DNA of 64,000 nt, taken from assembly GCA_014654455.1 (NCBI GenBank), contig JACWCY010000001.1, positions 53,501-117,500 on the forward strand, read 5' to 3'. How positions within the stretch are numbered: position 1 is the first letter of the stretch; each line of letters begins with the position of its first letter. Both the position numbers and the translations under genes were made by a program. Under the pieces are notes generated by a model. That model made no database searches, was not told the DNA's origin, and saw only the letters and a program-made list of their open reading frames with translations. Of the stretch, positions 5,321 to 63,644 are shown piece after piece. The DNA comes from Pelagibacterales bacterium SAG-MED01 (GTDB lineage: Bacteria; Pseudomonadota; Alphaproteobacteria; Pelagibacterales; Pelagibacteraceae).

Positions 5321-5329
5321 AATTTAAAT

Positions 5330-41150: not shown

Positions 41151-41179
41151 ATTTTATAAATGTGTATCATATTGTTCAA
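41151..41179 (-). promoter_or_regulatory. putative sigma70-type promoter for the ABC exporter operon
   Basis: Minus strand TTGAAC-17 nt-TAAAAT; the -35 lies within the 41173..41189 palindrome, about 60 nt upstream of the ATG. Confidence 0.4.
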
Positions 41180-41189
41180 TAATTGAACA
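41173..41189. promoter_or_regulatory. palindrome TGTTCAAT-A-ATTGAACA, candidate operator copy 1
   Basis: Perfect 8-bp arms around one base in the divergent intergenic region between 39321..41084(-) and 41258..42436(+); repeated at 55528 and 63607. Confidence 0.75.
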
Positions 41190-41257
41190 TAAACATTGTG
41201 CTTAAAATAAGTCAATGTATACTTAATATTTAAATAATTTAATAATTATAAAAAAAG

Positions 41258-42436
41258 ATGAATAAACATAATTTTATACAATATGGCAAACCTTACTACG
41301 GTTCTGAAGAAGATAAACAAGTTAAAAAAGTTTTAAATAGTAACTGGATTGGAACAGGTCCTATTTCTCAAAAATTTGAAAAAAATTTTTCTGAATACAA
41401 AAAGGTTAACTATGCAAAATCTTTAAACTCATGTACTGCAGCTTTACATTTATCTCTTTTGCTTTTAAATTTAAAAAAAAATGATGAAGTAATAACTACT
41501 CCTTTAACTTTTGCTGCAACAATAAATTCAATAATTTTAGCTGGAGGTAAACCAGTGTTGGTAGATATTAGAAACGATACGTATAATATTGATGAAAAAA
41601 AAATAGAAAAAAAAATAACAAGAAAGACAAAAGCGATTTTACTTGTCCATTTTGGTGGTATCCCTTGTGATATGGATCCAATAATAAAAATAGCAAATAA
41701 ATATAATCTCAAAATAATTGAAGATTGTGCCCACGCAATTGAATCAAAATATAAAAATAAAAATACTGGATCGTTTGGATTTACTGGTTGTTTTAGTTTT
41801 TATGCAAATAAAAACATCACAACTGGTGAGGGTGGTATGCTTATATGTAAAGATAAAAATATCGCAAAAAAAATTGAAATAATGAGATTGCATGGGTTGA
41901 GTAGAGATGCTTGGAAAAGATATATGCCTCAAGAAAAAATTCCAAAAGCAGGTTTAGTCTGGGATCATTACGATATAAAATATGTGGGATTAAAATATAA
42001 TATGATAGATATTAATGCAGCTTTAGGAATATCTCAATTAAAAAAAATTACATCTATGCTTAAAGAAAGAAACAAATTAGTAAAAGAATATAATAAACAT
42101 TTAAAACATCTTCCTGTTTTTTTTCAAAATACAAATTCCTATAAATTTAAAAATGCACATCATTTATTTACTATAGTATTAGATAAAAAAAGAACGAAAA
42201 AAAAAAGAGATTATCTACTAAGATATTTAAATGAAGAAGGTATTGGTGTTGGTGTAAATTATAGATCAGTTACCTCAATGTCATGTTATAAAAAATTATT
42301 CAAATGGAATAATCAAACATGTAAAAATGCAAATTATATTGGTAATAATATACTTAGTTTGCCGCTTTATCCTGGATTAAAGAAAAAAGAGCAACAATAT
42401 ATAATAAAAAAATTAAAAAAATTTTTTGATAATTAA
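41258..42436 (+). CDS. DegT/DnrJ/EryC1/StrS aminotransferase
   Basis: SLNSCTAALHLSLLLLNLKKNDEVITTPLTFAATINSIILAGGKPVLVDI...IEDCAHAIESKYKNKNTGSFGFTGCFSFYANKNITTGEGGM (PLP Lys retained). Confidence 0.94.
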   Translation: MNKHNFIQYGKPYYGSEEDKQVKKVLNSNWIGTGPISQKFEKNFSEYKKVNYAKSLNSCTAALHLSLLLLNLKKNDEVITTPLTFAATINSIILAGGKPVLVDIRNDTYNIDEKKIEKKITRKTKAILLVHFGGIPCDMDPIIKIANKYNLKIIEDCAHAIESKYKNKNTGSFGFTGCFSFYANKNITTGEGGMLICKDKNIAKKIEIMRLHGLSRDAWKRYMPQEKIPKAGLVWDHYDIKYVGLKYNMIDINAALGISQLKKITSMLKERNKLVKEYNKHLKHLPVFFQNTNSYKFKNAHHLFTIVLDKKRTKKKRDYLLRYLNEEGIGVGVNYRSVTSMSCYKKLFKWNNQTCKNANYIGNNILSLPLYPGLKKKEQQYIIKKLKKFFDN

Positions 42437-42460
42437 TTTTATAAACCTATAAAAACAAAA

Positions 42461-43216
42461 ATGAATAAAAAAGTTGGATGCATAATAGAAGCTAGAACTA
42501 ATTCTAAAAGATTGCCTAACAAAGTTTTGCTACCAGTGTTGAACAAACCAATTTTATACTGGCTAATTAAAAGAATAAAAAAAATAAAAAAAATTAAACA
42601 AATAGTATTAGCAACAACAATAAACAAAAATGATGATATTCTCGTTAAATTTGCAAAAAAAAATAAAATCAAATTTTTTAGAGGTAGTGAAAGTAACGTT
42701 GTGGGTAGAGTATGTGGTGCTGCAGAAAAATTTAAAATCAAAACTATTGTTGAAATAACTGGGGATTGTCCTGTAATTGATATAAATATAATAAATCAAT
42801 TATTAGATATTTTTGAAAAAAATTCGACTGAATATGTGAATAATTGTAATTACAGAAGCTATCCTGATGGGATGGATGTTCAAATTTTTAATGCAAAATC
42901 TTTAAAAAAAACTTTGAGAAATGCCAGAGACGCTAAAGAATTAGAACATGTGGGACTTCATCTAATTAGAAATCCTCAAAAATTTAAAACTATAAATGTA
43001 ATAGCTCCAAAAATTAATTATTTTCCTTCTCTTGGTCTAACACTTGATGAAAAAAAGGATTATATTTTATTAAAAAAAATTATTGAACACTTCGGTATAA
43101 AGAACCCCTATTTTACTTGTGAAGAAATAATTGATCTATTGAATAAGAAGAAAAAATGGAAAAAAATTAACAATAAAGTTAAAAGAATAGGATCTAACAT
43201 TTATAAAAATAGGTGA
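42461..43216 (+). CDS. SpsF-like cytidylyltransferase family protein (CMP-sugar synthesis)
   Basis: VGCIIEARTNSKRLPNKVLLPVLNKPILYWLIKRI...FFRGSESNVVGRV...EITGDCPVIDINIINQLL. Confidence 0.88.
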   Translation: MNKKVGCIIEARTNSKRLPNKVLLPVLNKPILYWLIKRIKKIKKIKQIVLATTINKNDDILVKFAKKNKIKFFRGSESNVVGRVCGAAEKFKIKTIVEITGDCPVIDINIINQLLDIFEKNSTEYVNNCNYRSYPDGMDVQIFNAKSLKKTLRNARDAKELEHVGLHLIRNPQKFKTINVIAPKINYFPSLGLTLDEKKDYILLKKIIEHFGIKNPYFTCEEIIDLLNKKKKWKKINNKVKRIGSNIYKNR

Positions 43217-43290
43217 TATTAATAGTTTACCACGATGCAGGTGGTGCTGACATTGTAAGTAATTATATAAAAAACAATTTAATATTATGA
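43213..43290 (+). pseudogene. N-terminal fragment of a 'HDAGGA'-type protein
   Basis: GTG start overlapping the previous TGA: (M)ILIVYHDAGGADIVSNYIKNNLIL*; only 25 codons, looks like a severed gene start. Confidence 0.5.
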
Positions 43291-43376
43291 GAATTTCGGA
43301 TAACGATAAATATCCATCATTTTTCAAGATATATAATACAAAATATATATTGAAAATTTTTAAAATCCAAAACTAA
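43287..43376 (+). pseudogene. C-terminal remnant of a formyltransferase-like gene (related to 49457..50113)
   Basis: MRISDNDKYPSFFKIYNTKYILKIFKIQN* resembles LRIADNDRYPCFFEYKKKIFKIKIYK* at the C-terminus of 49457..50113. Confidence 0.6.
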
Positions 43377-44545
43377 AAGTATTCTTTTTTGATTATATCT
43401 ATAATTTGTTCGTTTCCAGAATTTTTATTTTTTGGCAAATATTTTTTTAAAAAATAATTGTAATATTTAAATCTTGATCTCAAATCTTTCATTAATTTTG
43501 TTTTACTAAATTTAAATTCCTCAGATATGTTAATTTCTTTAAGTTTTAAATATTTATTGTAATGATCAGTTTTATAATTAATCTTTTCAAATAAATTACT
43601 TTTTAAATTTATAATAGGCTTTTTATTCATTATCGCATAGAGGATAGTGCTAGAGTCATAAAAAACTACTAAAAAAGCTTCATGTATATATTTTTGAACA
43701 TTTCTATTTACGATTTTAAATTTTTTAAATCTAAATTTTGCTTTCTTAAACGAGTACTTGGGAGAAATTGATATTATAATTTTTTTTTTAAATGAATTTC
43801 TTAATTTTAAAAGAAAATTATTTAAGTTTTTATAATGTACTTTTAAATCTTGTTCCTTGAATTTTCCAGTTATCTCAGATACGTCTTCATAATTTGGTGG
43901 TAGTTCTAATAAAAGTATATGTTTTTGTTTTGGTTTTTTTATGTTTATTTTTTCTTCATAGTGCAGGCTATTAACTAACTTAAAGCTTTTTACGTACGAA
44001 AATTTTTTTTTAAAAGAACTAGAATTTATATCATTATAAAGTTTAGCATTACTAATAAATCTAATATCTATTTGTGAAAATAACTTAATCATAACAAAAA
44101 GATTATGTAACAGGTGAGGAATTGTTCTAATAAATAAATTATTTATTCTATGGCCAATCTTTCCTTGATAATAATATGGACTTGGTTGGATATGACCTAA
44201 ATGTGTAATCATGATTTGAGGAATTTTTTTTCTGGCTATAAAATAGAATAAAGCAAAGTATCTTAGCCTTCTTGATACACCATTTATAATCAAACAATCT
44301 TTATTTTTTATAAATTCATCAAAATGAGATAAACTTTTGGGGTCAAATAATTTCAGGTTTTTGAAAAAATTTGATTTTTTAAATTTTGGTGCATTACCTT
44401 TAAATATTATTTCTAGACGATCAGTATTAACTATATAAAATTCTTTAAATTCTCTATTTAAATCATGTAATATTTTTCCATAACTAGATGGAACAGTGTT
44501 CAGATCTCTAAAAGAAAATAAAAATAAAATCTTTGTTTTTTTCAT
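43373..44545 (-). CDS. hypothetical surface-carbohydrate protein, possibly GT-B-like
   Basis: 390-aa ORF; AFLVVFYDSSTILYAIMNKKPIINLKSNLFEKI resembles the C-terminal half of polysaccharide-transferase-type proteins. Confidence 0.5.
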   Translation of the reverse strand: MKKTKILFLFSFRDLNTVPSSYGKILHDLNREFKEFYIVNTDRLEIIFKGNAPKFKKSNFFKNLKLFDPKSLSHFDEFIKNKDCLIINGVSRRLRYFALFYFIARKKIPQIMITHLGHIQPSPYYYQGKIGHRINNLFIRTIPHLLHNLFVMIKLFSQIDIRFISNAKLYNDINSSSFKKKFSYVKSFKLVNSLHYEEKINIKKPKQKHILLLELPPNYEDVSEITGKFKEQDLKVHYKNLNNFLLKLRNSFKKKIIISISPKYSFKKAKFRFKKFKIVNRNVQKYIHEAFLVVFYDSSTILYAIMNKKPIINLKSNLFEKINYKTDHYNKYLKLKEINISEEFKFSKTKLMKDLRSRFKYYNYFLKKYLPKNKNSGNEQIIDIIKKEYF

Positions 44546-44578
44546 TTAGATATTTATTTAAAATATGTCTTTACGATA

Positions 44579-45094
44579 TTATTTTATTAAAACTTTTTTA
44601 TAAAAACTATCTGCAAATAAAGCAATATATGAAAAAATTAGAGTGGAAATTAAAGTATTTTTAAAAAAAGGTAGCGCCATAACATAACTATTAAACAGAC
44701 CATTTAAATTCTTTTCATACATGTCGCTTGATATCCATGCACCAAAATTTGTAATAATGTAAAAAATTAGAGACCCAATAAATACGAAAACGAAAAAGTT
44801 TTTTTTATTTATTTTTGTTGAAATCTTAAAAAAGAAATATGAAATTACAAATAATGATAGATAAGTATAAAACATTTTATCATGAAATTTCAAAAAAATG
44901 TCTGACGCTAGCATTGAAACTGTAATTACAATTAAAGACATGGTAAAATTTTTAAATAAATATCCTCCCATGATTGCTACTGCTATTATAGGAGCAAAAT
45001 TTGGAGGGTGAGGTACCAATCTTGCAAAAGCTAATAATAGAATAATACAGATTGGAAACATCAATTCCCTAAATTTTTTATCAAATTTTGTCAT
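44579..45094 (-). CDS. small multi-TM protein (DUF6580-like)
   Basis: FARLVPHPPNFAPIIAVAIMGGYLF...ASDIFLKFHDKMFYTYLSLF...NFGAWISSDMYEKNLNGL. Confidence 0.75.
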   Translation of the reverse strand: MTKFDKKFRELMFPICIILLLAFARLVPHPPNFAPIIAVAIMGGYLFKNFTMSLIVITVSMLASDIFLKFHDKMFYTYLSLFVISYFFFKISTKINKKNFFVFVFIGSLIFYIITNFGAWISSDMYEKNLNGLFNSYVMALPFFKNTLISTLIFSYIALFADSFYKKVLIK

Positions 45095-45186
45095 ACAACT
45101 TAGTTATATATTTTTTTTAATAACTCTAATAATAGACTATTTTAAACAACATGTTTTTTAGTGAAAATTGTTATATTTTATTAATA

Positions 45187-45208
45187 TATTCAAGTCAACG
45201 CTTGAATA
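45187..45208. promoter_or_regulatory. inverted repeat TATTCAAG-TCAACG-CTTGAATA upstream of the radical SAM gene
   Basis: Perfect 8-bp arms, 6-nt spacer, 40 nt before the ATG at 45249. Confidence 0.45.
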
Positions 45209-45248
45209 AATCACATTATTAAAATATATATTTTTTTTAATTAATAAT

Positions 45249-46871
45249 ATGAGTTTAAAAATACTTTTTCTTTATCCAAATTTGTTTGGAACAAACATGA
45301 TACCGCCAGCTATAGCTTTATTTTCAGCTATGTTGAAAGAAAAAGGTCACCAAGTTGAGGTTTTTGATACCACTTATTATCTTGTAGATACTGGTACAAA
45401 TTCAGATAAAGCGATGGAAGATACCTTAGCAGTTATCCCAAGCAACTTAGCTAGTAGAGGAATTAAAATGAAAGAAACTCTATGGGAAGATGATCTTAAC
45501 ATTCATATAAATAGATTTAAACCTGATTTGATTGGAATTTCTGCAACTGAAGATATGTGGGAACTTGGAGAAAAACTTTTAAATAATATTAAAGATTATA
45601 AAGTAGAAAATAATGTACCAGTAATAGCTGGTGGAGTATTTCCAACTTTTGCTCCAGAATTAGTAATTAAAAATGAAGTTGTAGATATAGTATGTGTTGG
45701 TGAGGGAGAAAATGCATTACTTGACTTATGTGAAAGAATAAAAAATGGAGAAAAGGATTTTTCAAATATCACAAATTGCTGGGTAAAAACTATTGGACCA
45801 GAATATTTAAAAAATAGAAATGTTATAAGAAAAAATCCAATATCAAAACCTGTTGATGTAAATAAAAATCCAATAATAGATCTAAGTCTTTTTGAAACAA
45901 ACAGATTGTTTAGACCAATGGGTGGTCAAATCTATAAAATGTTTCCTGTGGAAACTATAAGAGGCTGTCCGTATACATGTACTTTCTGCAATTCACCAGA
46001 TCAAATGAAACTATACAACGAACAATCTGATGGTGGTTTTTTTCGAAAAAAGAGAATTGATTTAATTTCGAAAGAACTAAAGCATTTTAAAAATGATGAA
46101 GGGGTCGAATATAATTATTTTTGGGCAGACACATTTTTAGCAATGAATAAAAAAGAGTTTGAAGAATTTGTAGAAATGTACTCAGAAATCAAGATACCAT
46201 TTTGGATGCAAACTAGGCCTGAAACTATTACGGACTATAACATGAAAAAACTTAAAGAAGTAGGATTAGATAGAATTTCTTTTGGAATAGAACATGGAAA
46301 TGAAGAATTTAGAAAAAAAATTTTAGATAGAAGATGGTCAAATGAAAATATTATTGAAAAACTAAAACTACCAAATAAATATGATATAAGCTATACTCTT
46401 AATAACATTACAGGTTTTCCGACTGAAACAAAAAAATTAGCATTTGATACTATTGAGTTGAATAGACAAATTGATGCGGACAATTCCAATATAAGTACTT
46501 TCGTGCCTTTTCATGGCACCCCTTTAAGAAAGATGTGTGAAGATTTGGGGCTGATAAAACCTGAAACACTTGTAAAGTCCACTGCGTCAAATCCAGATGA
46601 AAAAGATATTGGGCAATTAAATATGCCTCAATATCCTCCTCATGAGATCAGGGAAATAAGAAAATGCTTTAATTTATACGTCAAATTTCCAAAAAATAGG
46701 TGGAAAGAAATTGAAAGAGCAGAAAAAGATGATGCTGAGGGAAACAGAATATATGATTATTTGAAACAGGAATTTCTTGAAAAATACATGCCCAAACCAA
46801 ATGCTGATCCTCATGGTGGAATTGAAGATTTTGTATGCATCGATAGCGCTAATAACGGTCTGGCAATTTAA
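45249..46871 (+). CDS. B12-binding-domain-type radical SAM protein
   Basis: ETIRGCPYTCTFCNSP (CxxxCxxC); Rossmann-like N-terminus KPDLIGISATEDMWELGEKLL...VIAGGVFPTFAPELVI...VCVGEGENAL. Confidence 0.9.
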   Translation: MSLKILFLYPNLFGTNMIPPAIALFSAMLKEKGHQVEVFDTTYYLVDTGTNSDKAMEDTLAVIPSNLASRGIKMKETLWEDDLNIHINRFKPDLIGISATEDMWELGEKLLNNIKDYKVENNVPVIAGGVFPTFAPELVIKNEVVDIVCVGEGENALLDLCERIKNGEKDFSNITNCWVKTIGPEYLKNRNVIRKNPISKPVDVNKNPIIDLSLFETNRLFRPMGGQIYKMFPVETIRGCPYTCTFCNSPDQMKLYNEQSDGGFFRKKRIDLISKELKHFKNDEGVEYNYFWADTFLAMNKKEFEEFVEMYSEIKIPFWMQTRPETITDYNMKKLKEVGLDRISFGIEHGNEEFRKKILDRRWSNENIIEKLKLPNKYDISYTLNNITGFPTETKKLAFDTIELNRQIDADNSNISTFVPFHGTPLRKMCEDLGLIKPETLVKSTASNPDEKDIGQLNMPQYPPHEIREIRKCFNLYVKFPKNRWKEIERAEKDDAEGNRIYDYLKQEFLEKYMPKPNADPHGGIEDFVCIDSANNGLAI

Positions 46872-46895
46872 TTTATTTAAAAAATAATTCTAAAG

Positions 46896-47879
46896 ATGCT
46901 TAGTGTAATATTTAGATGTGACGCTGGATACGTTAAAAGAATCGGGACTGGTCATTTATTTAGATCTATTACGATTGCAAAACTTTTAATTAAAAGATTT
47001 CATATACCCAGAAATAAGATTGTTTTTATTACTAAAACAAAGAATAAATTTTCAATTGCAAAAAAAGTATTAAAACAAAATAATTTTCAAAATATACCAA
47101 TTAAGGAAAATGCTAAAAGTATAGACGAATACTTGACTCTAAAAAAACTTAAATCATCATTATTAATTATAGATAAGTATAAAACAAAAAATACAGGATA
47201 CTTAAATAGATTAAAAAAAAATTTTAAAAAAATTATAATACTTGATGGTATTAAACATGAAAATAAGGATTTTTTATATATAAATTCATTAATTCAGGAT
47301 GTTAATAGAAATAAGATAAAACATATTGGTTTTAAGTATTTAATCTGCCCCTCTTTTTTTAAGCAGAAAAAATTAAAAATAAACAAAGAAATAAAAAAAA
47401 TTTTTTTGTTTTTTGGTGGTTTTGATAATAAAAATATTATGGATAAAATAATTAAATACTTTGTTACTAAAGAAACAAAATATGTATTGTGTGTACCTGA
47501 ATCATTAAAAAAAAAATATTATAAAAACAAAAAAATTAGATACTATAAAAATAGTAATATATATAATTTTTTATCATCATCTGATTTAGCGATAACTTCA
47601 GGTGGACTTATCATGTTTGACGCAATCAATTTAAAAAAACCATTAATTGCAATACCACAATATATGCATCAAAAAGTGAATATTAAAAAATTGAGTAAAA
47701 AAAGATGTTTGATTAACCTTAATTTAGACAAATATTTATATAAAAACTTAAAAAAATATTTATTCACCATTAATGATTTTAATAAAAGAGTTAAAATGAT
47801 TAACAACCAAAACAAAATTCTCTCTGGCAATAAAACACCAAAAGCAATAGAATTGATCTTCAATGAATTTAGAAAATAA
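46896..47879 (+). CDS. PseG-like UDP-sugar hydrolase
   Basis: VIFRCDAGYVKRIGTGHLFRSITIAKLL...LFFGGFDNKNIMDKI...SSDLAITSGGLIMFDAINLKKPLIAIPQYMHQ. Confidence 0.78.
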   Translation: MLSVIFRCDAGYVKRIGTGHLFRSITIAKLLIKRFHIPRNKIVFITKTKNKFSIAKKVLKQNNFQNIPIKENAKSIDEYLTLKKLKSSLLIIDKYKTKNTGYLNRLKKNFKKIIILDGIKHENKDFLYINSLIQDVNRNKIKHIGFKYLICPSFFKQKKLKINKEIKKIFLFFGGFDNKNIMDKIIKYFVTKETKYVLCVPESLKKKYYKNKKIRYYKNSNIYNFLSSSDLAITSGGLIMFDAINLKKPLIAIPQYMHQKVNIKKLSKKRCLINLNLDKYLYKNLKKYLFTINDFNKRVKMINNQNKILSGNKTPKAIELIFNEFRK

Positions 47880-48636
47880 CAAATATTTTAATTTTAAAAA
47901 TAAAATTGTTCTAATTACTGGATCAAATGGGATAATTGGAAATGAACTTTGTAATTTTTTTTTAGAATTGGGTGCAATTGTTTTTGGGATTGATAGTAAA
48001 GAAAAATCAGTGAAAAATTCTAAATATACTCATTTCAAAGGAAGTGTTGCTAATGATAGATTCATCTTCAATAAATTATCTCTAATAATAAAAAAACATT
48101 CAAAAATTGACATTATTTTAAATTGTGCAGCTATTTCTATATTTAGTCATTTTGAAAAAAGGACAAAAAAAGAAATTGATCAAACAATAAATGTTAATTT
48201 GATAGGAACACATAATGTAATTAAAAATTACGTCAAATTACATACAAAGAAAAAACTACAATCTAGCAGAATAATTAATTTTGGCTCAATTTATGGAACA
48301 AATAGTCCTGATTTTAGAATATATGGAAACAATGATAGATTTAATTCTGAAATATATGGAGCATCTAAAGCATCAATCATTCAATTAACAAAATATCTAG
48401 GTGTTATGTACATAAAAAAAAAAATTTTTATTAATTGTATTTCTCCAGGTGGCACAATTGTGAGTAAAAACAAAATATCAAAAAGATTTTATACAAAATA
48501 TTCCTCAAGAACTCCTATCGGAAGAATGGCAACACCAAAAGACTTGTTCACTGCTATAATCTATTTATCAAATTCAGAAACAAAATATACTGTAGGTCAA
48601 AACATTGTAGTAGATGGTGGATTGACAGTATGGTAA
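47863..48636 (+). CDS. short-chain dehydrogenase/reductase
   Basis: KIVLITGSNGIIGNELCNFFLELGAIVFGID...LNCAAIS...FGSIYG...YGASKASIIQLTKYL...NCISPGG. Confidence 0.93.
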   Translation: MNLENNKYFNFKNKIVLITGSNGIIGNELCNFFLELGAIVFGIDSKEKSVKNSKYTHFKGSVANDRFIFNKLSLIIKKHSKIDIILNCAAISIFSHFEKRTKKEIDQTINVNLIGTHNVIKNYVKLHTKKKLQSSRIINFGSIYGTNSPDFRIYGNNDRFNSEIYGASKASIIQLTKYLGVMYIKKKIFINCISPGGTIVSKNKISKRFYTKYSSRTPIGRMATPKDLFTAIIYLSNSETKYTVGQNIVVDGGLTVW

Positions 48637-49457
48637 AAAAGATTTTTAATCGAAAAATCAAATCAAAATTTTTAATAGCAGAAGCCGGTATTAATCATAA
48701 TGGAAATTTAAAAGAAGCATTTCTTTTAGTAGATAAGGCTAAAGAAAGCTTAGCAGATGCAATAAAATTTCAAACATACAAAGCAGAAAAAAGAGTTAAA
48801 AAAAGTAGTCCAATATTTAGTATTCTTAAAAAATGTGAGCTATCAAATGAAGAATTTTTCAAATTAAAAAAATATTGTGATAAAAAAAAAATTACTTTTT
48901 TTTCAACACCTTTTGATTGTGAGAGTGTTAATTTTTTAAATAAGATAAATGTAAAGCTATTTAAAATTTCATCATTTGACATAGCTAATATTGATCTTAT
49001 CAGCGAAATAAAAAAAACAAAAAAACCAACAATAGTTTCTACAGGAATGGCCTCAATAGGAGAAATCCAAAGTACATTTAAAAAATTTAAGAATAAAAAT
49101 ATTCCTTTGGCATTATTACATTGTATTTCCTCATATCCAAATTTAGAGGAAAATTCATATTTAGCAAATATTACAGATTTACAAAAAAAATTTAACTGTC
49201 CTATTGGGTTATCTGATCACACGCCAAATATTAAAACATCAATATATTCATACATTTTAGGTGCAAATATCATAGAGAAACATTTTTACCTAGGTAAAGG
49301 CCACAATTGTGTCGATAAAAGTGTTTCATTAGATCCAAAAAAAATGAAGCAACTTAAAACTGAATTAATAAATATTGATAAGATATTAGGAGATATAAAA
49401 TATGGTTTTAAAAAAGGTGAAGAGTTTGCAAAAACACTTCGAAGGAAAAAAATGTAA
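48630..49457 (+). CDS. NeuB-family nonulosonic acid synthase, lacking the C-terminal SAF domain
   Basis: KFLIAEAGINHNGNLKEAFLLVDKAKESLADAIKFQTYKAEKRV...PTIVSTGMASIGEI...LLHCISSYPNLEEN...GLSDHTPNI...GANIIEKHFYL; ends ...TLRRKKM*. Confidence 0.92.
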   Translation: MVKKIFNRKIKSKFLIAEAGINHNGNLKEAFLLVDKAKESLADAIKFQTYKAEKRVKKSSPIFSILKKCELSNEEFFKLKKYCDKKKITFFSTPFDCESVNFLNKINVKLFKISSFDIANIDLISEIKKTKKPTIVSTGMASIGEIQSTFKKFKNKNIPLALLHCISSYPNLEENSYLANITDLQKKFNCPIGLSDHTPNIKTSIYSYILGANIIEKHFYLGKGHNCVDKSVSLDPKKMKQLKTELINIDKILGDIKYGFKKGEEFAKTLRRKKM

Positions 49458-50113: not shown

Positions 50114-50121
50114 TAATATAA

Positions 50122-51288: not shown

Positions 51289-51323
51289 AAATTCATGATT
51301 AGATTAAATTTAAATATTATCAA

Positions 51324-52708: not shown

Positions 52709-52710
52709 AA

Positions 52711-53259: not shown

Positions 53260-53266
53260 CTCAATT

Positions 53267-53383
53267 TTATAATCTTTTAACTCTTTCAGCTAGCTCTTCT
53301 ATAAACAATTTATGGATTATATAAAAACGTTTTGTATCTTTGTAATTAGTAATAATTAAAACTTCGGTTCTATCTAGTGACAT
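53267..53383 (-). CDS. 38-aa orphan small ORF (possible gene remnant)
   Basis: MSLDRTEVLIITNYKDTKRFYIIHKLFIEELAERVKRL*; starts directly after the stop of 53384..54700; not in the supplied track. Confidence 0.4.
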   Translation of the reverse strand: MSLDRTEVLIITNYKDTKRFYIIHKLFIEELAERVKRL

Positions 53384-54700: not shown

Positions 54701-54739
54701 TTTTTAATACAAATTTCTAATTTAATTAAATAAAACAGT

Positions 54740-55456
54740 TTATTTAATTGCCAAAAAAACCTCAAAACAAACAAATTTGGCAACAGTAGAAATATCTTTA
54801 AAACCTGCTCTTTTTAAAAGTTCTAAATTTCCTTTTGTGGAAAATGGATCCAAAACACCTTTTAAGCTTTTTGTTTTAGAATTAATTTCTTCATTAGAAA
54901 AACCATTATTATATTTCCACTCTTTATATATTTCATTCATCATATCTTGTGTACGTGCATCATATGACCTTACTTTTTCAGCAAAGAAGAATGCCCCACC
55001 CCAATTTAAATTTTTATATATTTTATTTATCATTGCTTGTCTGTAATTTTGATTAATAAACTGCAAGGTGTAAAAAGAAATAGTAAAATCATTTTTTTTC
55101 AACTTTAATTTTTTTATATCTTTATTCAAAAATTCAATATTTTTAATTTTATTATACTTTTTTGCATACGTTATCATTTGCTTTACTATATCAATTCCAT
55201 AATATTTGACATTTTTTTTTGCTTTATGTCTTATTGCAATTTGTTTTAAAAAAGATCCTGTTGAGCATCCAATATCGTAAATAATAGAATTTTCTTTAAC
55301 AAAGTAATCAGATAATTCTTTACACAACCATTGTGAGTCTTTGTACATTGGTACTGATTTTTTTATATGGTTATCAAATTTTGGAGCAATATTTTTACCA
55401 AAAGACCATGAGGCTTTTTTGGAGAAAATATTTTTATCTATTTTAATTTTTGACAT
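54740..55456 (-). CDS. CmoA-like SAM-dependent methyltransferase
   Basis: IIYDIGCSTGSFLKQIA...ISFYTLQFINQNYRQAMINKIYKNLNWGGAFFFAEKV...KYNNGFSNEEINSKTKSLKGVL; start MSKIKI at 55456 preferred because the tracked 55534 start lies in the palindrome. Confidence 0.8.
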   Translation of the reverse strand: MSKIKIDKNIFSKKASWSFGKNIAPKFDNHIKKSVPMYKDSQWLCKELSDYFVKENSIIYDIGCSTGSFLKQIAIRHKAKKNVKYYGIDIVKQMITYAKKYNKIKNIEFLNKDIKKLKLKKNDFTISFYTLQFINQNYRQAMINKIYKNLNWGGAFFFAEKVRSYDARTQDMMNEIYKEWKYNNGFSNEEINSKTKSLKGVLDPFSTKGNLELLKRAGFKDISTVAKFVCFEVFLAIK

Positions 55457-55527
55457 ATTTTTTTTATTATTATTCAAATAATCTAAATAATAATATTTTA
55501 AATATTGAAAAAAGCTATTTTCAATAC

Positions 55528-55544
55528 TGTTCAATAATTGAACA
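55528..55544. promoter_or_regulatory. palindrome TGTTCAAT-A-ATTGAACA, candidate operator copy 2
   Basis: Between divergent 54740..55456(-) and the wHTH regulator 55588..55899(+); identical core to the 41173 copy. Confidence 0.78.
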
Positions 55545-55587
55545 ATATGCTAAACATAACACTGATTTTTAAATAAAAAACAAAATT

Positions 55588-55899
55588 ATGAGCAAAAAAC
55601 AAAATTATTTGGATATATTAAGATCAATCCAAAAAGAACCTGAAATTACGCAGAGAAAAATGGCAACAAGTCTGGGCTTTAGTCTTGGAAAACTAAGTTA
55701 TTGTTTAAAAAGTCTTCAGCAAAAAGGTTATGTTAAAATAAATAATTTTAAAAAAAGTAAAAAAAAATTAGGATATATATATAAACTTACACCATCAGGA
55801 ATTTCAGAAAAAACAAAACTAACTATAAATTTTATGAAAAGAAAAATGATAGAATATGAGGAACTTAAAAAAGAATTAGATGATACAAAAAATAAATAA
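55588..55899 (+). CDS. MarR/wHTH EPS-associated transcriptional regulator
   Basis: LDILRSIQKEPEITQRKMATSLGFSLGKLSYCLKSLQQKGYVKINNFKKSKKKLGYIYKLTPSGISEKTKLTINFMKRKMIEYEELKKEL. Confidence 0.9.
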   Translation: MSKKQNYLDILRSIQKEPEITQRKMATSLGFSLGKLSYCLKSLQQKGYVKINNFKKSKKKLGYIYKLTPSGISEKTKLTINFMKRKMIEYEELKKELDDTKNK

Positions 55900-55904
55900 A
55901 TTTA

Positions 55905-56696
55905 TTATTTTATTATTGCTCTAATGGTATATTTTTTATTTATTTCATAAATACTATTTAAATAAACGACTTTAAATTTCAATTTTTTTAAAAACATATT
56001 TAGCGATTTTAAACTAAAAATATTATAATGTTCTAAAAAAAATTCTTGTCTGTTATACCCATCTTTACATGCCGCAGAGTCAGGAACTTCGATATAAATT
56101 TTTCCATCTTTTTTAAGTAAAGATTTATATAATCTTAAAATTTTTTTAATCTCACTCAAATTAAAATGTTCTAGAACTTTATTGAATGTTATTAAATCAT
56201 ACTTCTTTTTAATTTTTTTGATTTTTTTGATATCATTTGAAACTAAATTAAGAAACTTACTTTTTAAAAAATTTATCATATTTCTATCACTTTCAATACA
56301 ATCCATTTTAAATCCACATTTCACCATTTCAAAAGGAAAGATTCCAAATCCACTACCAACATCTAAAACTTGTGAATTTTTTTTAATTTTTTTTTCTAAA
56401 AAATTTACTCTTTTTAAATTAGAAGATTTTTTTTTATTTTTTCTTATTTTTTCAAATTTTTTTTCAATATTTTTATGAGAGTAATTTGAATAGTTTTTTT
56501 TATATACTTTTTCTAAAAATTTTGAATATTTGTGTATGTTGTAATAATGTCCACATTCACAAGCATAAAGTGACCTTGAATAATTTTTTTTATTCTCCAA
56601 TCCAAATAAATTTTCACCTTTATTTTTTTTTTTAAATTTTTTAATTAATTTAATTTCCGATTTATTGCAAATTTTACATTTTAATGAAAAATTCAT
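55905..56696 (-). CDS. SAM-dependent methyltransferase with N-terminal Zn-ribbon-like Cys motif
   Basis: CKICNKSE...YACECGHYY; QVLDVGSGFGIFPFEMVKCGFKMDCIESD...ITFNKVLEHFNLSEIKKILRLYKSLLKKDGKIYIEVPD. Confidence 0.85.
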   Translation of the reverse strand: MNFSLKCKICNKSEIKLIKKFKKKNKGENLFGLENKKNYSRSLYACECGHYYNIHKYSKFLEKVYKKNYSNYSHKNIEKKFEKIRKNKKKSSNLKRVNFLEKKIKKNSQVLDVGSGFGIFPFEMVKCGFKMDCIESDRNMINFLKSKFLNLVSNDIKKIKKIKKKYDLITFNKVLEHFNLSEIKKILRLYKSLLKKDGKIYIEVPDSAACKDGYNRQEFFLEHYNIFSLKSLNMFLKKLKFKVVYLNSIYEINKKYTIRAIIK

Positions 56697-56808
56697 ATTT
56701 TGAATAAATTGAGTTTTTTAAAACTATATTTTAAATTAAACAAAATTTGGATAATAATCAAAGTTTCTTAATTTAATTTTGTTCAAGTCAATATTTTCTT
56801 TTTTTCAT

Positions 56809-58512
56809 TTAATTTTTTTTAAGCTTGTAGTTTCCAATATACAATACATCAAGCCCTGACAAATAAAAATTTTTTAAAGCATCTTGAACTGAGCATACCA
56901 TTGGCTCGCCTTGCACATTAAAGCTAGTGTTTAATAATATTGGTATATCTGTTTTATTATAAAAAGATCCAATTAATTTATAAAATAGTGCATTTGAATT
57001 TTTATTAACTGTTTGTAGTCTACCCGAGCCATCTACATGTGTTACTGATGGTAGATATTTTATTTTATCTTTTTTTATCATCAAAGTATTTTCCATAAAA
57101 TAACTTGTTTGAACATTCTCAAAGTATTCTTTTGTTTTCTCTTCAAGTATCGCAGGTGCAAATGGTCTAAATTTTTCTCTATATTTAACAAATTTATTTA
57201 TTTTATCTTTGATTAAGGGGTTTCTTGGATCAGCCAAAATTGATCTATTTCCTAAAGCTCGATCTCCAAATTCAAGTCTTCCTTGAAACCAGGCAATAAT
57301 TTTTCCAGAAATTATTGAATTTGTTGCATCGTTACAAATATCTTCTTTATATTCAAACTTTAATTTAAATTTTTTTAATACCTCTAAAATCTGATTATTA
57401 GAATATGAAGGTCCTAAATAATTATTTTTAAAATTAATTTTATATGATTTATTAAATAAGCTATTTACAAATAAAGCAGCACCAGTCCCAGCACCACTAT
57501 CATCTGGTACAGGTGGAACAAAAAGTTTTTTAAAATTTGTTTTTTTTAAAATTTTACCATTAGCAACACAATTAAGAGCACATCCACCTGCAATTACAAG
57601 GTTACTTGACTTATTTTTTTTACTTAAAGAAATTATCAATGAAAGATAAATTTTTTCAAATATTTTTTGTGCTGCATAAGCAATATTATAATAATCTTTG
57701 GTCAAATTTTTCCCTAGTTTATTTTTATTAATACCCAAATAATTCTCTAAATTTTTGTTTACATATCCTGGTCTATGAAACATGTAATGATTGAAATATT
57801 TGAGTTTTAAAAAAAACTCTCCTTTGGAATTAAATTCAATAAGTTTCTCGATTTTATTTTCATATATTGAAGATTTTCCATATGAGCTAGCTCCCATTAA
57901 TTTCCATTCTTCACTTTGAGGTTTAAATCCACAAAATTCTGTAAATGTAGAATAAAAAGAACCTAGAGAATGTGGAAATTTTTGTTCAAAAATTTTTTTT
58001 ATTTTATTTTTTTTTCCGCTATAAAAACCTAAACATTGTTCTTCTCCAAAAGCATCAACTGTTAAGATTGATGACTCGTTAAAAGAAGATAAAAAATAAT
58101 TACAAGCGTGGCTTAAATGATGATTAACAAAATAAATTTTAATTATTTTTCCATTTTCCAATTCAAGTTCCTGTATAAAAAAATCCTTATTTATTTTTTT
58201 AATATCTTTCATCAAATGATTTAGGGTGCTGTGTAAAATAGATGGAATATAAGTTAAATTTTCTGAGTTATTATTATCAAACTTTTCCAAATTGATTAGT
58301 GGATTCCAAGAAATGGCTATTGCATCAATCTCTTCAAACTTAATATTAGCTTTTTCAAGACAAAATTTAATTGCTTTGTTTGGAAATTTTCTTGTTCTTT
58401 TTTCTCTTATAAGTCTTTCTTCCTCAACAGCTGCTATTAACTCATTGTTGCAAATTATTGAGGCTGAAGTATTAAAACCAATGGCATTGAGTCCAAGAAT
58501 ATATTTTTTCAT
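56809..58512 (-). CDS. NodU/CmcH-family carbamoyltransferase
   Basis: ILGLNAIGFNTSASIICNNELIAAVEEERLIREKRTRKFPNKAIKFCLE...HHLSHACNYFLSSFNESSILTVDAFGE...IAGGCALNCVANGKIL...FGDRALGNRSILADPR. Confidence 0.95.
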   Translation of the reverse strand: MKKYILGLNAIGFNTSASIICNNELIAAVEEERLIREKRTRKFPNKAIKFCLEKANIKFEEIDAIAISWNPLINLEKFDNNNSENLTYIPSILHSTLNHLMKDIKKINKDFFIQELELENGKIIKIYFVNHHLSHACNYFLSSFNESSILTVDAFGEEQCLGFYSGKKNKIKKIFEQKFPHSLGSFYSTFTEFCGFKPQSEEWKLMGASSYGKSSIYENKIEKLIEFNSKGEFFLKLKYFNHYMFHRPGYVNKNLENYLGINKNKLGKNLTKDYYNIAYAAQKIFEKIYLSLIISLSKKNKSSNLVIAGGCALNCVANGKILKKTNFKKLFVPPVPDDSGAGTGAALFVNSLFNKSYKINFKNNYLGPSYSNNQILEVLKKFKLKFEYKEDICNDATNSIISGKIIAWFQGRLEFGDRALGNRSILADPRNPLIKDKINKFVKYREKFRPFAPAILEEKTKEYFENVQTSYFMENTLMIKKDKIKYLPSVTHVDGSGRLQTVNKNSNALFYKLIGSFYNKTDIPILLNTSFNVQGEPMVCSVQDALKNFYLSGLDVLYIGNYKLKKN

Positions 58513-58727
58513 TTATTCATATCCATTAAAATTTTAGCATTTATAAATTTAAATAAGAAATTTGAATTTTTACTTATCATGTCTTTATCATTTAAAATAT
58601 CTAAAATTTTTTTCTTACTTGTTATTGAATAAATTGATGATTTTTTTTTGACAAAATTAAGTATACTTTTAGACTTAAAATCTAATAATTTATCTGGTGA
58701 TATATTAAAACCTACAATTCTACACAT
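58509..58727 (-). CDS. 72-aa hypothetical ORF beginning MCRIVGF
   Basis: Overlaps the carbamoyltransferase start; N-terminus vaguely resembles class II amidotransferases (MCGIVGF). Confidence 0.4.
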   Translation of the reverse strand: MCRIVGFNISPDKLLDFKSKSILNFVKKKSSIYSITSKKKILDILNDKDMISKNSNFLFKFINAKILMDMNK

Positions 58728-58729
58728 CT

Positions 58730-59746
58730 TTATTTATTAAAATCACTTAATTGAACTAATTGATTCTTTTCTAAATCATGTTTAACTTTCTTACCTAAAT
58801 AATTCTTAGTTGAAGGAGGTATTCCACCTCCAGGTCTGATAAAAAAAACATTATTTTTTGTTAACACTTCACTTTTTTTAATTTTTCTTTTTGTGTGTAG
58901 ACTTCTTCTTGATTTTAAAATTTCCAAAGTTTCATTTTTTTCAATTTTCTTATTACCATTTCCCTTCATCAGATTTATTTCATTTAATTTTTTAATTAAC
59001 TTTTTTAATTCTAAAGGTGTTGCAGAAAGTTTATGATCCCTAAATGATTTTTTTTTGTCTTCAGTTAATGTAAAATGTTTTTCAATGATATTTGCTCCTA
59101 AGGAATAAGCATAAATACAAGCATCTATACCTATGGAATGATCAGAATATCCAGTAATAAAAATATCCTTTTTTAACTTTGATATAAACGAAATATTTAA
59201 GCTTTCTTTTGGGCATGGATAACTAGATACACAATGCATAAGACATATATTTTTTTTTATAAAATTTTTTTTCCAATTTTTAAAAATTATTCTTTTTAAA
59301 TCTTTTAATTGTAAATTGTTTAAAAGCCCTGTTGAAATTATAGTTGGTTTTTTAATTAATGAAATCTTTTTAATTAGTTCATAATAATTATTATCGCCTG
59401 AAGCAACTTTATAAATATTTTGAATTTTTGAAAACTTGTTTATATAATTTATATCAAAAATACTGCTAAAAAATTCAATTTTTTTTTTTTTACAAAACTT
59501 ATTGAGTAGTTCAAACTGTTTAAAGTTTAAACATATCTTTTTTAGTTGTTTAATTCTTTTGTTCTCATTAGTTGAAACTAAATTTTCAGGATTTATAAAC
59601 TGAAATTTTACTGCGTCTGCTCCTGCTTTTTTTGCTTCTATAATTAATTTTTTAGCTTTAAGAATATTACCACCATGGTTATTCCCAATTTCAGCAATTA
59701 TAAAAAAATTGTTATTTTTGATTCTTTGAAATAAAGTATTTTTCAT
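58730..59746 (-). CDS. NeuB-family nonulosonic acid synthase with C-terminal SAF domain (second copy)
   Basis: FFIIAEIGNNHGGNILKAKKLIIEAKKAGADAVKFQF...PTIISTGLL...LMHCVSSYPCPKESLN...GYSDHSIGIDACIYAYSLGANIIEKHFTL...RRSLHTKRKIKKSEVLTKNNVFFIRPGGGIPP. Confidence 0.95.
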   Translation of the reverse strand: MKNTLFQRIKNNNFFIIAEIGNNHGGNILKAKKLIIEAKKAGADAVKFQFINPENLVSTNENKRIKQLKKICLNFKQFELLNKFCKKKKIEFFSSIFDINYINKFSKIQNIYKVASGDNNYYELIKKISLIKKPTIISTGLLNNLQLKDLKRIIFKNWKKNFIKKNICLMHCVSSYPCPKESLNISFISKLKKDIFITGYSDHSIGIDACIYAYSLGANIIEKHFTLTEDKKKSFRDHKLSATPLELKKLIKKLNEINLMKGNGNKKIEKNETLEILKSRRSLHTKRKIKKSEVLTKNNVFFIRPGGGIPPSTKNYLGKKVKHDLEKNQLVQLSDFNK

Positions 59747-60746
59747 TATCTTTTTGTCTATACCAATTAATCATTTTTTTCATTCCTCTTTCCAAATTGT
59801 ACTCAGATGAAAAATTTACTAAATTTTTTGCTTTTTTCATTGATAGGGTTCCTCTGATGGGCATGAGTTTGTCTCTTTTAATTGTTTTTATTTTTAATTT
59901 TGGAAAATAAATCTTAAGTATATTTATTAATTCTAAAATTGATCTTGATTTTCCATAAGTTAAATTAAATATTTGATTTTTTGATTTATTACTTTTCATC
60001 ATTTTTATCATTCCGTTGATGAGATCACCTATATAAGTGAAGTCTAATTTTTCTTTTCCATTCCCATTTACTAAAACTGGTTCATCTTTCAAAGCACTCT
60101 CTATGAAAATCTGAATCACCCTTCTACTTACACATCTTTCCCCATAAAGTGCGGATGGTCTTATTATTGTGTAGGGTGTTTTAAATACTTGATTATATCC
60201 AATAACCATTTTTTCACCTGCAAATTTTAAAGCCCCATATATGCCCAAAGGTTCACATATTGTATTTTCATTTACTGTTGTTTTTTTAAATTGTCCGTAA
60301 AGCATGCTCGAAGATAAATAAAAAAATCTTTTTAATTTTTTTAAAGATCTAGATGCATCCAAGGAATTTTCTAGTGTTCTAACACTGTTATCAAAAGTAG
60401 AAAACGGATTTTTATTTGATACATTTGCATGAGCAACTGCAGCTAAATGAAAAAAATAATTTGGGTTAATTTTATCTACTAATTTGCTTATTTTTTTATA
60501 GTTTCTTGCATCTTGATTATAAATTTTTACATTACTTTCTTTTAATAGTTTTATTCTTTCATTTAATATTTTTATATAAAAACTATTTTGATTGTTAGAA
60601 ATTTTACTTTTAAAACTTTTAATATTATTTACATCAAATGAGTCGACTACTGATACGTCATAATCCTTACATAATTTAATTGCTAAGTTGTGACCTATAA
60701 ATCCCGATCCACCTATAATTAAAACTTTTTCTTTTTTAATTTTCAT
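59712..60746 (-). CDS. NAD-dependent epimerase/dehydratase
   Basis: KVLIIGGSGFIGHNLAIKLCKDYDVSVVD...FHLAAVAHANVSNKNPFSTFDNSVRTLENSLDASR...GIYGALKFAGEKMV. Confidence 0.92.
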   Translation of the reverse strand: MKIKKEKVLIIGGSGFIGHNLAIKLCKDYDVSVVDSFDVNNIKSFKSKISNNQNSFYIKILNERIKLLKESNVKIYNQDARNYKKISKLVDKINPNYFFHLAAVAHANVSNKNPFSTFDNSVRTLENSLDASRSLKKLKRFFYLSSSMLYGQFKKTTVNENTICEPLGIYGALKFAGEKMVIGYNQVFKTPYTIIRPSALYGERCVSRRVIQIFIESALKDEPVLVNGNGKEKLDFTYIGDLINGMIKMMKSNKSKNQIFNLTYGKSRSILELINILKIYFPKLKIKTIKRDKLMPIRGTLSMKKAKNLVNFSSEYNLERGMKKMINWYRQKDNEKYFISKNQK

Positions 60747-61886
60747 TTAAATTTTATTTATTCCTTCGAGTTTTTTAGCAATATAAATAAGATTTTGTTG
60801 ACTAACATGGGGACCTATTGGCAAACATATTGAATTATTACTAATGTTATTTGCGTTAATTAAATTTTTTTTATTAATATTAAATTTTTTTTTATAATAT
60901 TTTAATTCTGGTAAAATTTTAGGATAATAAATACTTGTTCCAATTCCATTGTTGTTGAGATATTGAATAATTTTTCTTCTCTTTTTTTTTAATGATCTTT
61001 CCAATAAAATTGACATGCAATAATAACTGCTAATGAACTTATTTTCAGAATGAGTTGAAATAATATTAATATTTTTAATATTATTAATTTTTTTTTTCAA
61101 GAAATTAAAATTTTCTTTTCTTTTTTTTATAAATAATTTCAATTTTTTTAATTGTTCAACACCCAAAGCACATTGCATTTCTGTCATTCTAAAGTTTAAC
61201 CCGATAGTTAAAACATCATACTCACCAGGAATTTTTCTTTGATCAAAAGTTTTATCAACTCCAAATCCTTTAAACAGTTTTGCCTTTTGTAAATCATTTT
61301 TATCTTTACATATTAAAATTCCTCCATCACCTGTGGCTATGTGTTTGGCTGGATAAAAAGAAAAACAAGCAAAATCTCCAAAACTACCTACATGTTTATT
61401 CTTATATTTTGCCCCTAGCGCTAAAGCACAATCTTCAATTAACTTAATTTTATATTTTTTGCATAATTTTAATACTTTATCTATTTTGACTGGCTTTCCT
61501 AAATAATGAACAATTGTTATAGCTTTTGTTTTTTTTGTTATTTTTTTTTCTATTAGGTCAACATCAATATTGCCGGTATCTTTTTCACAATCCACAAAAA
61601 CTGGTTTAGCACCTAAAAAAGTGCCTGCATGAACTGTTGCTACGTGAGTTTGTGCGGGTACTATAAATTCTGAGTTTTTATCTAAACCACTCAAAAAATA
61701 TGATGTCAATAAAGCTGAAGTGCATGAACTGATTGCTAGTATATTTCTAATCTGAGTAAAATTTGCAAAATCTTTTTCAAATTTTCTAGAAAAAGGTCCA
61801 TGTGTTAAAATACCAGATTTTAAAACTTTATTCACCAATGAAATCTCATTAGTACCAATAATTGGACGCGCAAAAGGAATTTTCAT
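60747..61886 (-). CDS. DegT/DnrJ/EryC1/StrS aminotransferase
   Basis: KIPFARPIIGTNEISLVNKVLKSGILTHGPFSRKFEKDFA...IEDCALALGAKYKNKHVGSFGDFACFSFYPAKHIATGDGGIL (PLP Lys retained). Confidence 0.95.
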   Translation of the reverse strand: MKIPFARPIIGTNEISLVNKVLKSGILTHGPFSRKFEKDFANFTQIRNILAISSCTSALLTSYFLSGLDKNSEFIVPAQTHVATVHAGTFLGAKPVFVDCEKDTGNIDVDLIEKKITKKTKAITIVHYLGKPVKIDKVLKLCKKYKIKLIEDCALALGAKYKNKHVGSFGDFACFSFYPAKHIATGDGGILICKDKNDLQKAKLFKGFGVDKTFDQRKIPGEYDVLTIGLNFRMTEMQCALGVEQLKKLKLFIKKRKENFNFLKKKINNIKNINIISTHSENKFISSYYCMSILLERSLKKKRRKIIQYLNNNGIGTSIYYPKILPELKYYKKKFNINKKNLINANNISNNSICLPIGPHVSQQNLIYIAKKLEGINKI

Positions 61887-62887
61887 TTCAAATAATTAAT
61901 TTTAACTGTTTTATTGTTTTTAATAGATCTTTCAATAGCAAAACAAACTTTTATTGAATAAAAAACTCTTTCAATTAATTTTTTTCTTAAAGATTGCTTT
62001 CCAATTGATTCTAAAAAAAACTTAATTGCATTTCCTTTGTAATAATTTTTATAGTTATTTTTTGTTTTTTTAACAATATTTTTTGATTTAGATTTAAAAA
62101 TTCGGATGTTTTCAATATCATTTTCAAAAGTTTTTTTAGTTCCATATATTGCCAGTTTATGAAAATGTGGATAAACACACCCAAAATTACTTGAAATTTT
62201 AGCTATCATACCATTAGCAAATTTTAATAAAGAAACAGTACAATCATTATATTTAAATGCACTTTTATTGGTACAAAATTTATTTCCATAAGATTTAACT
62301 TCAACAATATGAGACTCAACCATCCATGAAATCAAATCGACCATATGAATTCCTCCACCTAGTGTAACAGAATAGTATGGGATTTTTCCTCTCCAACCAT
62401 GAGTAATTTTTTTTAATCTTCCATAATTATAATCAGCCTCTACTGAATATATTTTTCCAAAATCATTATTAAGAATAGATTTTTTTAAATTAATAAAAAC
62501 AGGAGACTCTGATAGAATGAAATTTGAGTATAAATGAATATTTTTATTTTTTTTTAATAAATTAAAAACTTTTGAAAGATGAGCCTCTTTTAAAACCATC
62601 GGTTTTTCAACAAAGATGTTTTTTTCATTCTTTATACCTTTTAAAATTTGATTGAAATGATAATTATCATAACTTGCAATTGAAATTATATTGATTTCGA
62701 TATCATTAAAAATATCATTTTCTGATGAGCATATTTCTATTGATGGATATTTTTTTTTTATTAACAGCATTTTTTTCTTATCAAAATCAAAAATTTTCTT
62801 AACTTTACATCCAAATTTAAAATAGGACTCAATGTGTCTTTCACCTACACCTAAACCTATAACACCTATATTAAAATTTTTTTTCAT
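61883..62887 (-). CDS. Gfo/Idh/MocA-family oxidoreductase
   Basis: FNIGVIGLGVGERHIESYFKFGCKVKKIFDFDKKK...NIFVEKPMVLKEAHL...GGGIHMVDLISWMV. Confidence 0.93.
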   Translation of the reverse strand: MKKNFNIGVIGLGVGERHIESYFKFGCKVKKIFDFDKKKMLLIKKKYPSIEICSSENDIFNDIEINIISIASYDNYHFNQILKGIKNEKNIFVEKPMVLKEAHLSKVFNLLKKNKNIHLYSNFILSESPVFINLKKSILNNDFGKIYSVEADYNYGRLKKITHGWRGKIPYYSVTLGGGIHMVDLISWMVESHIVEVKSYGNKFCTNKSAFKYNDCTVSLLKFANGMIAKISSNFGCVYPHFHKLAIYGTKKTFENDIENIRIFKSKSKNIVKKTKNNYKNYYKGNAIKFFLESIGKQSLRKKLIERVFYSIKVCFAIERSIKNNKTVKINYLK

Positions 62888-63557
62888 TTATTATTTCTTT
62901 AGATATTTTTAATAGTTTTTTTATTCCTAAATTTTTATCTTTAGATCTTCTAATAATTTCTTTGATAACATTAAAATCTGATTTTGTATTAATTGATAAA
63001 TTAATATAATTTAAATTTTGATTTAAAGAAAAGTTTACTATATGAAATTTTTTGAAATTTTCATAAAAATACTTGGTAATATGCTCTTTGTGACTTTTTT
63101 TTTTTATTTTTTTAAAAAATTTAAGAAATGTTGCACAGTTAACGACTTCTACAGATTGACCTTGTGGATAAGATCTTGGAAAAGTGTTTGTAACTAAATC
63201 AGGTTTTTTTTTTAAAAAAATATTTACAGCTTTATCAACTAGCTTATAATCAATTAATGGACTGTCACCAGAAATTCGAATAAAATTATTACTTCTTACA
63301 TTTTTGATAACTTTTATAAACCTGTGATAAACATTATTTATACTACCTCTAAAATATTCAATTTTTTTTTCTTTACAAAATTTTTCAATTTTATCATCTG
63401 ATTTTAAAGATGAGGTTGCTATAATAATTCTACTAATTTTTTTGGATTTCTTTAACTTTTTGACCACTCTTTCCAACATAGTCTGATTATACATCTTTTT
63501 TAATACTTTTTTTGGTAATCTTGTGGAACTCATTCGGGCCTGGACTATACAAATCAT
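62871..63557 (-). CDS. SpsF-like cytidylyltransferase family protein (second copy)
   Basis: MICIVQARMSSTRLPKKVLKKMYNQTMLERVVKKL...YFRGSINNVYHRFIKVI...RISGDSPLIDYKLVDKAV. Confidence 0.92.
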   Translation of the reverse strand: MICIVQARMSSTRLPKKVLKKMYNQTMLERVVKKLKKSKKISRIIIATSSLKSDDKIEKFCKEKKIEYFRGSINNVYHRFIKVIKNVRSNNFIRISGDSPLIDYKLVDKAVNIFLKKKPDLVTNTFPRSYPQGQSVEVVNCATFLKFFKKIKKKSHKEHITKYFYENFKKFHIVNFSLNQNLNYINLSINTKSDFNVIKEIIRRSKDKNLGIKKLLKISKEIINEKKF

Positions 63558-63606
63558 TAATTTTAAATTTGTCTTTTAATCATAATTTTTCTATTATGTA
63601 TCATAT

Positions 63607-63623
63607 TGTTCAATTATTGAACA
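63607..63623. promoter_or_regulatory. palindrome TGTTCAAT-T-ATTGAACA, candidate operator copy 3
   Basis: In the divergent intergenic region between 62871..63557(-) and 63668..(+); flank TGTATCATAT also shared with the 41173 copy. Confidence 0.78.
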
Positions 63624-63644
63624 TACAATAAACTAATATATAAT
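63617..63644 (+). promoter_or_regulatory. putative sigma70-type promoter overlapping operator copy 3
   Basis: TTGAAC-16 nt-TATAAT upstream of the ATG at 63668; the -35 is the right arm of the palindrome. Confidence 0.5.

Follow-up and report, generated by a model that had tools for sequence, protein, structure and literature searches.

A palindromic candidate operator of the TIGR04176 regulator at surface-glycan operons in hypervariable region 2 of a SAR11 genome

A stretch of 64,000 nucleotides from Pelagibacterales bacterium SAG-MED01, a member of SAR11 (contig JACWCY010000001.1, positions 53,501 to 117,500; referred to as the window), corresponds to SAR11 hypervariable region 2 (HVR2), between the 5S and 23S ribosomal RNA (rRNA) genes, and contains three copies of the palindrome TGTTCAATWATTGAACA. 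One copy stands before a gene for a winged-helix protein of 103 amino acids (aa) of TIGR04176, the NCBIfam family MarR_EPS, 'MarR family EPS-associated transcriptional regulator'. The palindrome is very probably the operator of this protein, which would repress both its own gene and surface-glycan operons. The reading is based on the site, the regulator, their co-occurrence, the position of the site and its covariation with the protein, each determined computationally.

Exact copies of the palindrome were located by a search of the window at the positions below, all intergenic and between divergent genes, in agreement with the earlier note on this DNA.

41173 to 41189, no strand assigned: predicted operator TGTTCAATAATTGAACA, flanked by the ABC-exporter operon on the minus strand and the aminotransferase/cytidylyltransferase pair on the plus strand
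55528 to 55544, no strand assigned: predicted operator before the regulator gene (autoregulatory), with the orthologous position occupied in 67/71 SAR11 and 74/79 other loci
63607 to 63623, no strand assigned: predicted operator preceding the nonulosonate-type operon on the minus strand and the plus-strand gene starting at 63668
55588 to 55899, plus: regulator gene, TIGR04176 MarR_EPS winged-helix protein, 103 aa

The number of copies expected by chance from the base composition was 9e-5 per window and 0.0016 per genome. No fourth copy was detected within the 64-kb window with one or two mismatches allowed, so that the part from 5.5 to 40 kb, where the earlier note had seen none, is free of the palindrome at this threshold also. 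In the 1.17-Mb assembly (19 contigs) the palindrome matched exactly four times; there was no match at one mismatch and a single one at two (on contig C15, dropped because it is located inside a gene). The relaxed core GTTCA-N5-TGAAC returned the identical four sites; the palindrome is therefore rare, and each exact copy is at a divergent promoter. The fourth exact copy (C7:955-971, on a 4.2-kb contig) is flanked by the gene for a WbuX-type N-acetyl-sugar amidotransferase on the minus strand and by that for an asparagine-synthase-like protein (asnB) on the plus strand, and is another divergent surface-glycan promoter. The same contig (C7, locus L017, 1-4224) ends in an MlaA-type lipoprotein-like gene, as judged by eye, and because of this gene the WbuX-/AsnB-like target may be outside HVR2. 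The regulon, previously proposed to be island-specific, is thus centred on the island and not strictly confined to the window.

The regulator matched the TIGR04176 hidden Markov model with a score of 128.3 bits against a cut-off of 88 (residues 4-100 on positions 3-99 of the 105 in the profile), well in support of the earlier assignment of this small gene to the EPS-type MarR proteins. It is the sole TIGR04176 gene in the genome, has Pfam HTH_24/MarR matches and, as a MarR_EPS member, lies amid exopolysaccharide/surface-glycan genes both in the window and in other genomes. The AlphaFold model (monomer, pLDDT 87) consists of a winged helix and a single long C-terminal helix (69-102), and a Foldseek search with this model retrieved the MarR-family structures MepR-DNA, HcaR and PcaV; judged from the monomer model, its length leaves no room for the usual N-terminal dimer helices. 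MarR-type autorepressors are well known, and here too the palindrome overlaps the predicted promoter of the regulator's own gene.

Co-occurrence of the site with orthologues of the regulator, named as a check in the earlier note, was evident among 247 genomes of the family to which the window organism belongs. TIGR04176 was above the cut-off in 119 of them, and TGTTCA-N5-TGAACA was present in 96 of these 119 versus 9 of the 123 that gave no regulator match at all (Fisher P = 8e-34; 174 versus 9 sites in total), compared with 7 and 5 genomes, respectively, for a reversed-pattern control. Within the genus of the window organism, the site was found in 13 of 19 regulator-bearing genomes versus 2 of 54 lacking it (P = 3e-8), and both P values are indicative only, since the genomes are related and the Fisher P overstates their independence.

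Among 71 unique SAR11 regulator genes, 67 had at least one site (at most 2 of the 12 arm bases changed) directly upstream (between -300 and +60 relative to the start), in most cases at -10 to -45. Tandem sites were common at these genes with a favoured spacing of 23 bp (exactly 23 bp in 17 pairs, 19-26 bp in 36). SAR11 loci totalling 1.10 Mb held 57 further core sites and no control match, and 52 of the 57 were located in intergenic sequence, which accounts for 11% of these loci (P about 1e-43), some of the loci having been selected for holding several sites. Most of these further sites precede nucleotide-sugar, nonulosonate and exporter genes, including those for short-chain dehydrogenases/reductases (SDRs) of the PseB/LegB/CDP-glucose-dehydratase type, NeuB, CMP-sugar transferases, PglK-type ABC exporters, HMGL-like aldolases, a cytidylyltransferase-phosphoenolpyruvate (PEP)-mutase protein and radical-SAM (S-adenosylmethionine) enzymes; the linkage to polysaccharide operons inferred earlier from the window therefore extends to the other SAR11 copies. 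The operator-linked gene with a cytidylyltransferase-like domain and PEP mutase (L055:2-592 and L065:207-1508) hints at phosphonate-decorated glycans in some SAR11 relatives.

The same operator was present at 17 of 20 standalone TIGR04176 genes in a phylum-wide sample (a contig-end fragment, L134, was left out), and at the three clear exceptions (L124, L129 and L132) the recognition helix of the protein is changed. In 79 loci from named, mainly beta- and gammaproteobacterial records, including Methylobacillus, Methylotenera, Methylophaga, Marinomonas, Microbulbifer and Gallionella, the exact core stood upstream of the regulator in 74, and elsewhere in these loci (1.24 Mb) 8 other sites and 2 control matches were found. 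The consensus outside SAR11 was YGTTCA-N5-TGAACR. In the 8 loci inspected, the regulator heads a same-strand run of polysaccharide genes (Gmd-, Fcl-, PglK-like exporter-, PseB-, PseC-, PseF- and NeuB-like, by-eye similarity), in some loci following other such genes. It seems that a single operator usually serves a single operon, and that SAR11 has elaborated this into a multi-site regulon. In Microbulbifer rhizosphaerae (L190) a NusG/RfaH-like sequence (10354-10848, plus; by eye) directly follows the regulator, suggesting that control of initiation and elongation is combined on this polysaccharide operon.

The recognition helix SLGKxNYCLKAL is nearly invariant among standard TIGR04176 members, and N5 spacing was found in 151 of 159 SLGK members. 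Sites with N4 spacing (GTTCA-N4-TGAAC or GCTCA-N4-TGARC) accompany the changed helices SLGG, STGG and SVGS/SVGA, and also the SLGRLNA helix of fused proteins. A single-residue rule (K35 = N5) was rejected, since R35 goes with N5 in SLGR-xN[YF]C and with N4 in SLGRLNA; only the helix type as a whole tracks the spacing. The correlation supports direct recognition, and this support is not independent of phylogeny because whole subfamilies, not one residue, are tracked. In the fused proteins encoded at loci L135-L143 (family f13, from the class of the window organism; frames of about 690-705 aa), a TIGR04176-like winged helix is fused N-terminally to ATP sulfurylase and APS kinase, with one or two GTTCA-N4-TGAAC sites upstream; the fusion is apparently an enzyme regulating its own gene, possibly for glycan sulfation.

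Sigma-70-like promoters were predicted and scored against controls with shuffled flanks in which the operator was kept. Outside SAR11, the -10 of the best promoter starts 14-16 bp ahead of the operator centre, and the predicted start was in or beside the operator in 61 of 72 loci versus 14 of 72 with shuffled flanks. In 36 of 65 autoregulatory sites at SAR11 regulator genes, versus 1-5 with shuffled flanks, the 17-bp spacer between the predicted -35 and -10 is filled by the operator, with the pattern CTTTACT-GTTCA...TGAACGn-TATAnT and often a second operator at the start. Both geometries would block polymerase, and would thus result in repression with feedback, which agrees with the promoter occlusion suggested earlier. 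SAR11 target sites mix the two geometries (47/81 versus 13-20 with shuffled flanks). The one-sided extension AATATG / AATATGATACA, formerly taken to indicate a longer and asymmetric element, is real and corresponds to a -10 hexamer (TATGAT/TATGCT) placed 17 bp from the -35 position. The promoter elements assigned in the window are as follows.

41166 to 41171, minus: putative -10 TATGAT, facing the exporter gene, 17 bp downstream of the -35 position
55546 to 55551, plus: putative -10 TATGCT, 17 bp after the hexamer AATACT (55523-55528), weak, at the conserved offset
63600 to 63628, minus: putative promoter with -35 TTGTAT (63628-63623), an operator-filled 17-bp spacer and -10 TATGAT (63605-63600)

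The second of these supplies a candidate -10, albeit a weak one, for the 55.5-kb copy, at which none had been clear before. Use of the TTGAAC arm as a -35, also proposed earlier, may hold at single sites, being the top-scoring reading at 41 kb (minus) and 63.6 kb (plus), but was rejected as a general rule because shuffled-flank controls, which pick the TTGAAC arm with a -10 at +23 to +27, yielded it more often than the real data.

It is unlikely that the TIGR04176 protein binds these sites as an activator or dual regulator of the glycan operons. The weak or mixed -10/-35 positions at some SAR11 target sites and the presence of one site common to several divergent genes are compatible with activation, whereas the operator over the transcription start outside SAR11 (61/72) and the spacer-filling operator with a second copy at the start at SAR11 regulator promoters are both positions that occlude polymerase; class I and class II activators sit further upstream. 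Binding of the palindrome by another transcription factor, with the TIGR04176 gene merely its target, is considered very unlikely. The single copies in 9 genomes without a detected TIGR04176 gene would fit such a factor, but this count is near the control level (9 versus 5), the site is kept before the TIGR04176 gene across classes with few regulators in common, and operator spacing changes with the recognition helix of the TIGR04176 protein. A recombination or cassette-exchange site of the island is still less probable: the copies are intergenic and at cassette boundaries in HVR2, where genes are rapidly exchanged (PMC2217521), but the palindrome keeps fixed offsets from promoter elements, occurs in beta- and gammaproteobacteria about once per locus, before the regulator and not flanking cassettes, and no linked recombinase was seen, although no search was made for one. 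Least probable is an RNA hairpin, be it a terminator, an attenuator or a riboswitch-like element, which a perfect inverted repeat upstream of operons might suggest. The predicted starts lie inside or downstream of the repeat, so that the full repeat would not be transcribed from these promoters; such short, AT-rich arms, with no T-run after them, do not suit a terminator; and the arm bases do not vary, although compensatory changes would be expected in an RNA stem.

Besides the relatedness of the genomes and the selection of some loci mentioned above, several observations weigh against an operator of a TIGR04176 repressor. In 23 of the 119 regulator-bearing genomes the strict 12-base arm pattern is absent, some of these genomes having outer-base variants and many being incomplete metagenome-assembled genomes, and 9 regulator-less genomes carry one copy each. 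Because of the mixed promoter geometry of the targets, the case for repression at each SAR11 target is weaker than that for repression of the regulator gene. The predicted model of the regulator has no clear ligand pocket, and for this reason control of the 103-aa protein by homeostatic feedback or by a partner protein is possible.

From sequence comparison we infer physical binding, repression rather than activation, and feedback, as follows. A dimer of the winged-helix protein would bind YGTTCA-N5-TGAACR inside core promoters and, once bound, block RNA polymerase. The regulator would repress its own gene in a negative feedback and, at the three further copies, both members of divergent surface-glycan operons, which comprise the exporter, the nonulosonate/aminosugar cassettes and the amidotransferase/asnB pair. 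In bacteria other than SAR11, a single operator heading one polysaccharide operon with the regulator as its first gene would suffice, and in SAR11 the operator would be dispersed over the exchangeable cassettes of HVR2.

HVR2 is flanked by 5S and 23S rRNA, holds cell-surface genes and is a region of rapid gene exchange (PMC2217521). In the genome studied here, the 23S/16S rRNA lies to the right of the window (contig C1, 120.2-123.6 kb). Of the 19 genomes of the genus that bear the regulator, 7 have it between 5S and 16S on a single contig (G000, which is this genome, G078, G106, G135, G183, G187 and G203), and 9 more have it on the same contig as one flank, within about 65 kb; the other 3 are affected by contig breaks. 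The boundary and the genes around the predicted operators are listed below.

5329 to 5443, minus: 5S rRNA, left HVR2 boundary
37114 to 38343, minus: UDP-Glc/GDP-Man dehydrogenase, after the exporter
38390 to 39328, minus: gene without family, after the exporter
39321 to 41084, minus: PglK/MsbA-type ABC glycan exporter, putative target
41258 to 43216, plus: putative target region, aminotransferase and cytidylyltransferase
41258 to 42436, plus: DegT/PseC-type aminotransferase
42461 to 43216, plus: CMP-sugar cytidylyltransferase
54740 to 55534, minus: SAM-dependent methyltransferase (CmoA-like), divergent from the regulator, with its true start probably at an ATG near 55456
56809 to 63557, minus: nonulosonate-type putative target operon, whole
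62871 to 63557, minus: CMP-transferase
61883 to 62887, minus: GFO/IDH/MocA
60747 to 61886, minus: PseC/LegC-like aminotransferase
59712 to 60746, minus: SDR
58730 to 59746, minus: NeuB/PseI-like synthase
between the NeuB/PseI-like synthase and the carbamoyltransferase, minus: small open reading frame
56809 to 58512, minus: carbamoyltransferase

The plus-strand gene behind the third operator (63668-64000) gave no Pfam match and, in the stored genome, runs on into masked sequence (N).

Taken with its own-promoter position, its co-occurrence with the regulator and its linkage to glycan genes, the palindrome points to an island-centred regulon of an EPS-type MarR protein, as the earlier note proposed. 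SAR11 is known for few regulators, and its hypervariable surface region is credited with governing phage recognition; the greatest potential interest attaches to the proposed dispersed control of exchangeable surface cassettes. As a tentative extension, HVR2 might be a plug-in surface-antigen system in which each cassette carries the operator, new cassettes come at once under the resident repressor, and the phage-receptor coat is switched or co-ordinated as a unit. The results indicate that part of the hypervariable surface region of SAR11 is under a common repressor, and surface variation may be regulated besides being exchanged. The family TIGR04176 gains a predicted operator (YGTTCA-N5-TGAACR), together with a proposed mechanism and a regulon that can be tested in many Pseudomonadota at once.

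Compared with MarR, MepR, HcaR and PcaV, among which are the closest solved folds, the regulator has the same winged-helix fold, a predicted palindromic operator at its own promoter and tandem operators. It differs from the classical MarR/MepR autorepressors in its length (103 aa versus 135-150), in a model composed of a winged helix-turn-helix and one long C-terminal helix without an obvious ligand pocket, and in its putative targets, which are surface-glycan operons and not efflux or aromatic catabolism. The window shares with the HVR2 of SAR11 (PMC2217521) the location at 5S/23S rRNA and the cell-surface gene content, and a common transcriptional control of HVR2 was not described in the papers searched. 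Likewise, no report of the DNA site, mode of action or regulon of TIGR04176 was found in the papers searched, in which most subscription journals were not covered. The regulator is a full-length member of the TIGR04176 family (about 105 aa, in polysaccharide loci), of which it would be the SAR11 version with a predicted regulon dispersed over several operons.

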